Assembly: GCA_021373015.1 (NCBI GenBank)
Contig: JAJFTJ010000020.1
Span: 1-54,483, forward strand
Source: Nitrospiraceae bacterium
GTDB taxonomy: Bacteria; Nitrospirota; Thermodesulfovibrionia; Thermodesulfovibrionales; UBA1546
Direction of reading: 5' to 3'
DNA length: 54,483 nt
The notes beneath the pieces were generated by a model that saw only the letters and a program-made list of their open reading frames with translations, did not search any database and was not told where the DNA came from. Shown piece after piece: positions 12,281-15,125 of the stretch (positions are counted from its first letter, which is position 1; each line of letters opens with the position of its first letter). The position numbers and the translations under genes were made by a program.

Positions 12281-12370
12281 TGAAATGGGCGGATTTTTTC
12301 GGGATGCTGGGAGAAAAGAGAGGGGATTTGAGATGAAGGTGAAAAAGGCTAATGATTCAAAGAGCTCAGT

Positions 12371-12709
12371 TTAAAATAGATTAAGCTTTTTAAGGATTTC
12401 CAAACTTTCAATAACAAAATTTTCTATTCCTATTGGCTTTGCTTTAATATGGAGCAAGGGATTTTTAAATGGATGCTCATGATAAAAGCCGCCTTCTTTA
12501 TCTATCCCGTATATCCTCTCACCAGCAACCACAAGAGCTATATTAAGTTTTTCTTTTCTCTCATTGGCGTAAATCTGCATGAAAATCTCACTGGAAAAAC
12601 CAATCCGTGCAATTAAGGTGATGTCTGTATGGTCTATCTCTAATAGTTTTAATCCATATCTGTCAGTAATATCTTTTATGTCATGGATTATCTTCTCAAT
12701 CTTTATCAT
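12371..12709 (-). CDS. Probable toxin-like partner of a two-gene pair
   Basis: A 112-residue protein. The N-terminal helix plus LKLLEIDHTDITLIARIGFSSEIFMQIYANERKEKLNIALVVAGERIYGIDKEGGFYHEHPF reads as a small alpha/beta domain with an RIYGIDKEGGFYHEHPF segment. It broadly resembles DUF6516/TumE-like toxins and related small proteins, an assignment that is tentative. It overlaps the upstream small gene by 4 nt (ATGA), a common toxin-antitoxin layout. No catalytic residues can be assigned with confidence. Confidence 0.55.
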   Translation of the reverse strand: MIKIEKIIHDIKDITDRYGLKLLEIDHTDITLIARIGFSSEIFMQIYANERKEKLNIALVVAGERIYGIDKEGGFYHEHPFKNPLLHIKAKPIGIENFVIESLEILKKLNLF

Positions 12710-12975
12710 TCGCTTATTTTTTGTATCTTCTTTATTTTGTCTTCAAGATATCTTATGCCTTCTACAGCGTGTTCCCAATTCATAGAATCCTGCTCTACAT
12801 CCCATGAGTGGTTTTTTTCTGCCACAAGATTTTTTTTCTCAAACTCCTTGAAGCTCATGCCGTATTTCTTTCTGAATCTTTCGTCCGTGAGTTTAAATAA
12901 GGTAAGCCGTTTTTCATACTCACTAAGCACTGCCTCTTTTATCTCCTTTTCCGGAAGCAAGTCAGCAAGTTTCAT
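12706..12975 (-). CDS. Probable antitoxin-like small helical protein
   Basis: About 89 residues from ATG 12975 (MKLADLLPEKE). AGGAGGTGA, an almost ideal Shine-Dalgarno, ends 5 nt upstream, so the GTG at 12984 is not the start. The protein is helical and charged, with TDERFRKKYGMSFKEFEKKN and a WEHAVEGIRYLEDKI ending. I have seen this pattern in short proteins encoded before small toxin-like partners, but I cannot name the family. It precedes and overlaps the 12371 gene. It carries no obvious DNA-binding motif. Confidence 0.55.
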   Translation of the reverse strand: MKLADLLPEKEIKEAVLSEYEKRLTLFKLTDERFRKKYGMSFKEFEKKNLVAEKNHSWDVEQDSMNWEHAVEGIRYLEDKIKKIQKISE

Positions 12976-13002
12976 TAAAATCACCTCCTGTTTGTTTTAA
13001 AT

Positions 13003-13011
13003 AGTATAACA
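13003..13011 (-). promoter_or_regulatory. Extended -10 promoter of the toxin-antitoxin-like pair
   Basis: On the minus strand TGTTATACT (TGn plus TATACT) lies 27 nt upstream of the ATG at 12975. It predicts a leader of about 20 nt that contains the strong ribosome site. Confidence 0.5.
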
Positions 13012-13039
13012 AAATTTTCACCTTTCCTCTCTGTTCTAA

Positions 13040-13090
13040 AAAAATCTCTGACAAGTTTATTTTCAGGATAAAAAAGGACGAGAGATTTTT
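13040..13090. repeat. 10-bp inverted repeat
   Basis: AAAAATCTCT at 13040-13049 and its reverse complement AGAGATTTTT at 13081-13090 are separated by 31 nt, in the spacer between the toxin-antitoxin-like pair and the PIN operon. A second short palindrome (CATTTAAA / TTTAAATG, 13124-13141) follows. Their role is unknown. Confidence 0.35.
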
Positions 13091-13171
13091 GGGATGGAAG
13101 GGGAAGGAGAGCATGAAGAATTGCATTTAAAGTTTTAAATGTTATGTTTATGTTTGGATTATTCTACCTAT

Positions 13172-13828
13172 TTAAGAATATGTCAATATCGTAAAACCGT
13201 CTATATCTTTATATGCCTCATCCAGCGAAATCAGGCAGGGCACATTCAAATAGTCAGCAATAGCAAGATGCATTGCATCATTAGATTCGAGCTTGGGAAA
13301 GGCATCCAGCAGGATTGCAGCGTATTCAACAATGCTCATGCTGATATTGGTTAAATGAGGGGAGGGCAACGGATAAAGAACCTTCACGCCTGCTTGTTTC
13401 AGGAATTCTTCAGCTTTAGCTATTCTGTGGGAAATCTTATTAAATGCATTTAGGAATTCAGTCGGGTAATTATTGATGAAATATTTATACTTGTTATGGA
13501 TAGAATTGACGGAACTCGGCAAAGTGATCTTCTTTTGAACAATGAAATTATTAACAACTTGATACATACCATCAGACCCATACCAAAAGAAGTAGAAATG
13601 CATCAATTCACTGAACCCATAAACGGAAGTCACAAGCTCGCTATTGTTCTGTTTTATCAGATTGAAGAACTGGAAGCAGTCATTTTCTTTTGCTGTTATT
13701 TTTGTCTGGTTTGCTGCGTTATCATGATAAAAGAGCAGCGTTATGAGGAAATTAGCGTCACAGTAAAGGCGAAGAGGTTTTGTGAGTAAGGAAGGATAAT
13801 CTTTGAATAAAATTACATTAGCCGGCAT
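13172..13828 (-). CDS. PIN-domain protein (probable ribonuclease)
   Basis: A 218-residue protein with a PIN nuclease pattern: LRLYCDANFLITLLF at the start (first acidic residue), a central helical insert, then ESNDAMHLAIADYLNVPCLISLDEAYKDI (later acidic residues) and a final strand FTILTYS. PIN proteins of about 130-150 residues are the VapC toxins; this one is longer because of an insert around residues 60-150. It is the last gene of a three-gene operon, 2 nt after the preceding stop. The partner is not a typical VapB, so a simple VapBC assignment is doubtful. Confidence 0.7.
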   Translation of the reverse strand: MPANVILFKDYPSLLTKPLRLYCDANFLITLLFYHDNAANQTKITAKENDCFQFFNLIKQNNSELVTSVYGFSELMHFYFFWYGSDGMYQVVNNFIVQKKITLPSSVNSIHNKYKYFINNYPTEFLNAFNKISHRIAKAEEFLKQAGVKVLYPLPSPHLTNISMSIVEYAAILLDAFPKLESNDAMHLAIADYLNVPCLISLDEAYKDIDGFTILTYS

Positions 13829-13830
13829 CC

Positions 13831-14334
13831 CTATTCATCTTCGTCAACGCTGCCCAGCATTTCATCCAGAGTGGCGTCAGCGATATCGGGCTTCTCCTCG
13901 GCACCGGCCCACAGTTTCATTTTCGGCACTTCCTTTACCAAATATTTCTCTTTGAAATATTTTTTCTTCTCTTCAACTCTTGCTTCAACTGCTATAAAGT
14001 CACTTATAATCTTTGCAAGGGTAGGGATGTATGGTAGATAGGGTTCAATAGCCTTGAATTTTCTCTCAAGCTCGGCTAACCGCAAGTTTAAATTGCTGTT
14101 TCTCTTTTCCAGGAAAGTTACATATGATGCCAGATCATCTTCAAATACTGCCGTACTGTTTGACGCCCGCTGAGGCGCATAATAATAAGAGATGATCTTA
14201 TTGAGGTCCGGCAGATGATTGGCCCCCATATGTTCTCGCTCTTCATCCCTAAAGGAGTCATTGGTAAATGCCTGAGGGACAAACAAGGTATAAAAGTCCT
14301 TGCGACCTTTCCTTATATCAACTAAAGATGCCAT
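13831..14334 (-). CDS. Unrecognised coiled-coil protein of the PIN operon
   Basis: A 167-residue protein. Residues about 65-95 (FEDDLASYVTFLEKRNSNLNLRLAELERKFKAIE) form a probable coiled coil. A helical stretch with EARVEEKKKYFKEKYLVKE follows, and the protein ends in an acidic tail (LDEMLGSVDEDE). It overlaps the upstream gene by 17 nt and is followed 2 nt later by the PIN gene, so all three are probably translationally coupled. No family is recognised. It could be an adaptor or an antitoxin, but that is inference from position only. Confidence 0.6.
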   Translation of the reverse strand: MASLVDIRKGRKDFYTLFVPQAFTNDSFRDEEREHMGANHLPDLNKIISYYYAPQRASNSTAVFEDDLASYVTFLEKRNSNLNLRLAELERKFKAIEPYLPYIPTLAKIISDFIAVEARVEEKKKYFKEKYLVKEVPKMKLWAGAEEKPDIADATLDEMLGSVDEDE

Positions 14335-14917
14335 TTACATACTCCTCAAATTCATTATAGCGCATCGAGAACTCATTCTCAAAGTTAATGTCGTATGGTA
14401 TCTCGAAATGAAAGTTCGCAGAAGCTACCGCCTGCATTTTGTCCTGCAAATGCGGTCCGATATCTAATGTGCAATTATACGGGTTTTTCTTGATGAACGC
14501 CTTTATCCCAATACCCGATAGACCATCGCCGAACTTCGTCTTATATTTCTCAGTAAGAAACTCGTCTGTCGAGAACTTTCCAAACTCTGAATCGCATGTC
14601 AAGTCCATTGAAAAATTAAAACCTACCGCAACTAATTCAGGCCCCTTTACTTCCGAAATAAATTTCTTTGCCATTTTTGGTGCTGGACTATCAAGGACAC
14701 TTCCGGCGTTATGGTTGATAACAATTCGACGATTATCGACGTCCACAATAAAATTACAGGTTCCAAAATCCATTAAGCCGAACGGTGGAATTTGTATTAA
14801 GTTCTGAGGATTAGGCAAGATATCTGCAAAAAGAGACTGGGACAGAAAACTCGTATGCAGCTTGTTTGCAACTATCGTGATATTGGCATTTTTTAGTGCT
14901 TTGCTTGTAATTTTCAT
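14318..14917 (-). CDS. Unrecognised protein, first gene of the PIN operon
   Basis: About 199 residues if started at ATG 14917 (MKITSKALKN). A longer frame to 14983 would add 22 hydrophobic residues lying upstream of the promoter -10 and is not favoured. The sequence is mixed alpha/beta, with FGTCNFIVDVDNRRIVINHN and a conserved-looking GPELVAVGFNFSMDLT. There is no transmembrane or nuclease motif. No family is recognised. There is no Shine-Dalgarno; a TATAAT lies 19 nt upstream, so the leader is very short. Confidence 0.6.
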   Translation of the reverse strand: MKITSKALKNANITIVANKLHTSFLSQSLFADILPNPQNLIQIPPFGLMDFGTCNFIVDVDNRRIVINHNAGSVLDSPAPKMAKKFISEVKGPELVAVGFNFSMDLTCDSEFGKFSTDEFLTEKYKTKFGDGLSGIGIKAFIKKNPYNCTLDIGPHLQDKMQAVASANFHFEIPYDINFENEFSMRYNEFEEYVNGIFS

Positions 14918-14936
14918 AAGTGTTGATAAGTTAACA

Positions 14937-14942
14937 ATTATA
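14937..14942 (-). promoter_or_regulatory. -10 element of the PIN operon promoter
   Basis: A perfect TATAAT on the minus strand, 19 nt before ATG 14917. A possible -35 TTGTCT is 19 nt further upstream, slightly wide. The sequence between the -10 and the start (TGTTAACTTATCAACA) is an imperfect palindrome that could bind a repressor. Confidence 0.45.
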
Positions 14943-15114
14943 CACCAACCGCCATATAAAAAGACAAGGCTAAAATTTGGCAATACTTCCTTTTTTATGC
15001 TCTCATCTTTTCACTAAATTCATCCTACACATTCTCCCTCAATCTTAATCCTTTAAATCCAAGAAATTCAATAGCACTGGGGCAAGAGATGCATCAGGAA
15101 CTGGAAATTTAGGT

Positions 15115-15120
15115 TACAAT
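15115..15120 (+). promoter_or_regulatory. -10-like element abutting mnmA
   Basis: TACAAT ends 5 nt before the mnmA ATG at 15126, with no Shine-Dalgarno between. The spacing matches other presumed leaderless starts in the window, but it lacks the TGn extension and a good -35, so support is moderate. Confidence 0.35.
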
Positions 15121-15125
15121 ACAAC

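Follow-up and report, generated by a model that had tools for sequence, protein, structure and literature searches.

An uncatalogued protein family links a Nitrospiraceae PIN-domain operon to a proposed modular three-gene toxin system

Among described systems, the closest in logic to the operon analyzed here are the toxin-antitoxin-chaperone (TAC) modules, in which a SecB-like chaperone stabilizes the antitoxin and of which one, CmdTAC, is known to respond to infection: its chaperone is bound by a phage capsid protein, and the toxin is thereby set free (PMC11618068). VapBC pairs combine a PIN RNase effector with a small DNA-binding antitoxin of the AbrB, RHH, or Phd type, and PDC-M32 is a PADLOC phage-defense candidate named by its A and B proteins. 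HEPN-T proteins (PF05168), in the portion of PMC3710099 used here, occur near restriction-modification operons and carry an R-x4-D motif (D replacing H) together with a conserved His elsewhere in the chain; partners corresponding to g1 and g2 (see below) are not described for them in that portion.

The operon lies in a 54,483-nt stretch of DNA (hereafter the window; contig JAJFTJ010000020.1 of assembly GCA_021373015.1) from a Nitrospiraceae bacterium. An earlier note on this sequence had proposed three overlapping or nearly abutting genes, and the minus-strand open reading frames place them exactly (Table 1): g1 runs 17 nt into g2 (−17 nt), and g2 and the PIN-encoding g3 are separated by 2 nt (+2 nt). 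Behind g1 there are thus a tightly coupled g2 and a third gene of the nuclease type. The note had further credited the operon with its own TATAAT; a perfect TATAAT is indeed found 19 nt ahead of the g1 ATG, but its best −35 element is a poor one (TTGTCT, at a distance of 19 nt), for which reason it is missing from a consensus promoter scan, and the region has no more promoter-like sites than chance would give (7 against 8.3 expected). In a related genome (G256, locus L017) the cysS-mnmA gap measures only 324 nt and the 2.8-kb insert is missing, so the window's cargo either is mobile or was gained or lost. The window has no tRNA genes, and the small two-gene pair that shares the insert with the trio could not be matched convincingly to Pfam, NCBIfam, PADLOC, or the plasmids.

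Table 1. Positions of the operon and associated features in the window
Feature	Position	Strand or location	Description	Basis
g1	14318..14917 (ATG 14917, stop 14318)	(-)	199 aa; constant protein, uncatalogued family	ORF, profile, and alignment
g2	13831..14334	(-)	167 aa; putative cognate antitoxin or adaptor	ORF; position equivalent to class-specific g2 of other trios
g3	13172..13828	(-)	218-aa PIN-domain protein; putative RNase effector/toxin	ORF and PF01850
TATAAT	14937..14942	(-)	putative -10 box of operon	sequence; weak -35, promoter unproven
Small two-gene pair	12371..12984	(-)	92 + 112 aa, overlapping/abutting; TA-like in size and layout	
Insert, ~2.8 kb	12281..15125	between cysS and mnmA	carries the trio and the small two-gene pair	

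As judged from its sequence, g1 is a member of a real, uncatalogued protein family. A single-sequence search of 396 genomes of the window's phylum gave weak relatives (L032, E = 2.8e-5; L033; L034), and g1 relatives of this type form one coherent family; in the window g1, as aligned, the motifs A-x-G-x-N-F and N-F-H lie near residues 97–102 and 168–170, respectively. Profile searching found clear members in 12 of the 396 genomes, a larger profile found members in 18 of 176 genomes of the order, and 16 cyanobacterial plasmids were matched by one g1 relative in tblastn. As a control for circularity, the window protein was excluded from a profile built on 24 relatives; in the window's genome this profile matches exactly the window g1, with E = 8.4e-12. 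The g1-g2-g3 operon thus exceeds a chance arrangement, in that an independent profile finds the g1 homologs and the layout recurs in other genomes. In the g1 tree, no member diverges further than that of the window (end branch 2.89), from which the N-terminal NPxILNPDFL motif is absent.

Neither g1 nor g2 could be convincingly assigned to a family of Pfam, NCBIfam, PADLOC, or PHROGs; in particular, neither matches a housekeeping family, the outcome that would have told against the earlier note's reading. Likewise, 26 g1 members gave no convincing match to the Pfam, NCBIfam, and PADLOC models, and the family is therefore uncatalogued in these three collections. Two candidate identities were rejected because none of the 26 members matched them: SecB (Pfam, E < 0.1) and TIGR04255 (NCBIfam), the "sporadic" family that we took to be a lead. 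No other chaperone model was matched either, a profile search of the PDB with g1 gave nothing, and AlphaFold models from single sequences were unusable for g1 and g3 (mean pLDDT 35 and 42). Among phages, tblastn with g1 gave nothing, as did viral scans with real g1 alignments, a method that needs near-exact peptide matches and whose null result therefore does not show absence.

The window g3 is a PIN-domain protein: it matches PF01850 with E = 1.2e-5, above the 23.6-bit cut-off, over the stretch 126–210, and it has acidic residues in all four expected PIN motifs, D24 (CDANF), E74 (SEL), D184 (NDAMH), and D203 (SLDE). These four positions are common to the PIN RNase effectors of VapBC. The operon differs from VapBC in its additional gene g1, in its longer PIN protein, in that HEPN or MBL (metallo-β-lactamase) proteins can take the place of PIN in other trios, and in the partner, since neither g1 nor g2 matches a small DNA-binding antitoxin model of the AbrB, RHH, or Phd type; we therefore agree with the earlier note that the layout is not that of VapBC and that such an antitoxin is absent. 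By inspection, g2 is mostly helical/coiled-coil with an acidic C-terminal tail.

Searches of genomes and plasmids found no relatives of the window's own g2 or PIN protein outside its genome; the exact trio is therefore known once, and our claim is built on g1 and on the architecture. Searching the plasmids by tblastn with the window proteins gave nothing, and neither did pattern searches in viral and genome collections, whether run with these proteins by themselves or with alignments that had been diversified artificially and served only as degenerate patterns; near-exact peptide matches are needed in such searches, so that a null does not show absence. The first PIN matches in relatives proved spurious: those at L004 and L006 are antisense to a PglZ-like gene, and that at L005 is an ordinary short PIN protein with an upstream partner. 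A g2 match in genome G172 was rejected because it sits within a 1309-aa reading frame.

The architecture itself recurs. Reading of the neighborhoods places g1, g2, and g3 in the same order at 17 loci, the window included, with intergenic distances of −70 to +23 nt in the 15 trios measured, and the third genes fall into four classes: HEPN (6), a ∼145-aa group that we call X (5), metallo-β-lactamase (MBL; 4), and PIN (2). In most trios g3 is thus predicted to be an RNase (PIN or HEPN) or a metallo-hydrolase. Besides the window, the PIN class contains L069 (genome G279; PF01850, 3.6e-15), whose PIN protein and g2 both differ from those of the window; no similarity was found between the two g2 proteins of these only two known PIN trios. 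The HEPN class (L067, L068, L103, L104, L105, and L106) was assigned from a PF05168 match of L068 (5e-8), the similarity of L067 to L068 (4.7e-10), and a six-way alignment with invariant residues that shows an R-x4-D-Y motif and an invariant His. These third genes thereby share the R-x4-D and conserved His reported for HEPN-T in the cited portion of PMC3710099, whereas the window carries PIN, not HEPN. In the MBL class, L070 matches PF00753 (4.1e-6) and the LmuA model (1.3e-7), L071 is homologous to L070, and L122 and L123 were included through g2 homology and sequence inspection. Group X comprises L072 and L073, which are alike, L074, which is weakly so, and L107 and L058, placed by size and layout only. 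The L058 pair resembles PDC-M32A/B (g2, 1e-5, to the C-terminal part of PDC-M32A; g3, 0.015, a weak match); PDC-M32 is matched by this g2/g3 pair only and not by the window genes, and g1, which links the trios, matches no PADLOC model well. The co-occurrence of the three-gene architecture across genomes is thus borne out, although the window's own g2-PIN pair was not found elsewhere.

In another genome, from the same family as the window's (L108:4086-6439), a distant g1 precedes genes of 112 and 197 aa and one for a ClpP-like serine protease, which may represent a further effector type.

The type of g2 matches the type of g3, and the g2-g3 pair is a variable cassette on a constant g1. Leave-one-out profiles recover the left-out g2 in 6/6 cases for the HEPN trios (E from 0.005 to 7e-16) and in 4/4 for the MBL trios (E ≤ 1.2e-18), with no other class matched at E < 1; the group X g2 proteins are heterogeneous in this test. 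In the g1 tree, members bearing HEPN and X cassettes are scattered, and well-supported branches force at least three label changes for each, which means that g2-g3 cassettes have moved relative to g1. Long branches make the details of the tree unsure, and the HEPN members of the L104/L105 clade are split from the L067/L103 group by starred nodes. Homology, order, close packing, and exchange are, like the PIN identity of g3, shown by these data.

A constant protein, a mutually specific pair, and an RNase-type third gene together follow the logic of TAC modules, on which basis we propose a sensor/chaperone-like role for g1, an antitoxin role for g2, and a toxin/effector role for g3. We put the probability at roughly 0.55 that the operon belongs to a modular toxin system of three genes, with a g1 of this kind, an antitoxin-like g2, and a swappable RNase or hydrolase as g3. 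Like TAC modules, the trios consist of three coupled genes, with one conserved protein common to differing toxin-antitoxin pairs (provided that g2 is an antitoxin), and TAC toxins, like the trio third genes, include several endoribonuclease families. The trios differ from TAC in gene order (constant gene, g2, effector) and in that TAC chaperones are SecB-related, whereas g1 has no SecB match and its chaperone role is putative. By analogy, we infer stabilization, neutralization, triggering, and an RNA target as follows: g1 would bind and stabilize g2, and g2 would keep the PIN RNase inactive; engagement of g1 by a phage product (e.g., a structural protein) would then lead to release or degradation of g2, and the freed PIN protein would cut cellular RNA, such that growth and phage replication stop. 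CmdTAC provides a precedent for a mechanism of this kind (PMC11618068). The idea that this is an undescribed defense or toxin-type PIN operon accordingly gains support in an altered form, in which the constant part is g1, whereas the third position can be taken by at least four kinds of gene, PIN among them. No description of the three-gene module was found in the open-access papers searched.

The anti-phage function of the operon we infer in part from the surroundings of the trios. At least 6 of the other 16 adjoin restriction, HerA, or SecB-type genes (a raw count): L058, on a cyanobacterial plasmid, is flanked by genes annotated as R and S of type I restriction, L069 adjoins a DUF262 protein (PDB 7p9k, 8.4e-9), L106 adjoins a type III Mod gene (EcoP15I Mod, 5.9e-15), L072 has an LlaBIII-like enzyme three genes off (4.3e-48), L074 has a HerA ATPase nearby, and L068 adjoins a SecB-like protein with toxin/antitoxin-like genes. 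An AbiE-like pair seen by eye beside L104 found no confirmation when compared with the PDB and was left out of the count. The HEPN trio at L068 stands tail to tail with a toxin/HTH/SecB-like row that resembles a TAC module (L068:4329-8474), and another HTH gene with a small partner is found on its other flank. L072 and L073, both of the X type and from different genomes, each adjoin a malate dehydrogenase-like gene; their surroundings otherwise differ.

Such defense neighborhoods would also suit the main rival, a sensor-adaptor-effector system that does without an antitoxin, in which g1 (or g1 with g2) would sense a phage component and switch on an otherwise idle PIN, HEPN, or MBL effector, much as in Lamassu and other modular systems whose effectors are exchangeable. 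The swapping of effectors on a constant g1 and the match of an MBL third gene to the LmuA model (1.3e-7) point the same way. Small stand-alone PIN and HEPN proteins, however, usually show constitutive activity and depend on a neutralizer, and the trio effectors include proteins of this kind; close tracking of g3 by g2 is, moreover, what is expected of an antitoxin. We regard a sensor that switches the effector on as unlikely.

The PIN toxins are the commonest toxins of toxin-antitoxin systems, and the tight packing of g2 and g3 and the insertion at the variable cysS-mnmA site would also be in keeping with an ordinary toxin-antitoxin pair, in which g2 is the antitoxin, g3 the PIN toxin, and g1 a gene that hitchhikes or serves only autoregulation. 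We consider this improbable: g2 has no DNA-binding domain match, and it is g1 that keeps reappearing while the g2-g3 pairs next to it are unrelated and span at least four effector classes, a pattern that would not be expected of a hitchhiker.

Outside the trios, g1 stands alone in 10 of 34 tree rows. Several solo genes are found beside a putative Uma2-type gene (by eye only, those of L109, L110, L111, and L075 adjoin such Uma2-like, putative nuclease genes), and others follow pheT, as seen in one genus. On cyanobacterial plasmids, several g1 members lie upstream of very long genes of the Ig/CARDB or polymorphic-membrane type with no evident toxin pair; at L056, L057, L060, L061, L063, and L064 they are just upstream of giant 10- to 30-kb genes, and at one plasmid locus of this kind a peptidase-ABC transporter and a peptidylprolyl isomerase are encoded alongside. 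A pure toxin model does not account for the solo and giant-gene contexts, which suggest that g1 serves as a general module for protein binding or sensing. That g1 is instead a protein-binding or export-related factor without a part in defense, and the trio a regulatory unit whose RNase serves RNA processing or stress, would fit the solo genes after pheT in one genus and the giant Ig/CARDB genes downstream of g1 on the plasmids, one of them beside the peptidase-ABC transporter gene, but is very improbable given the sporadic distribution (12/396 genomes of the phylum), the location within an insert, the restriction neighbors, and the exchange of third genes, which are typical of conflict systems.

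Returning to the modular three-gene toxin system, we suggest tentatively, as a broader proposal that could well prove wrong, that the g1 family forms the core of an undescribed, widespread anti-phage class, in which a constant infection-sensing, chaperone-like protein is combined with interchangeable antitoxin-toxin cassettes (PIN, HEPN, metallo-hydrolase, and PDC-M32-like), the PIN operon of the window being one such combination. If so, one conserved, unmodeled family would unite apparently unrelated toxin/effector operons, including a pair like a PADLOC candidate, and a profile of the g1 family would expose many overlooked defense loci. The trigger of a toxin-antitoxin module would become directly testable through g1, and a comparison of the PIN, HEPN, and MBL versions, whose g1 proteins are related, would tell the sensing step apart from the killing step.
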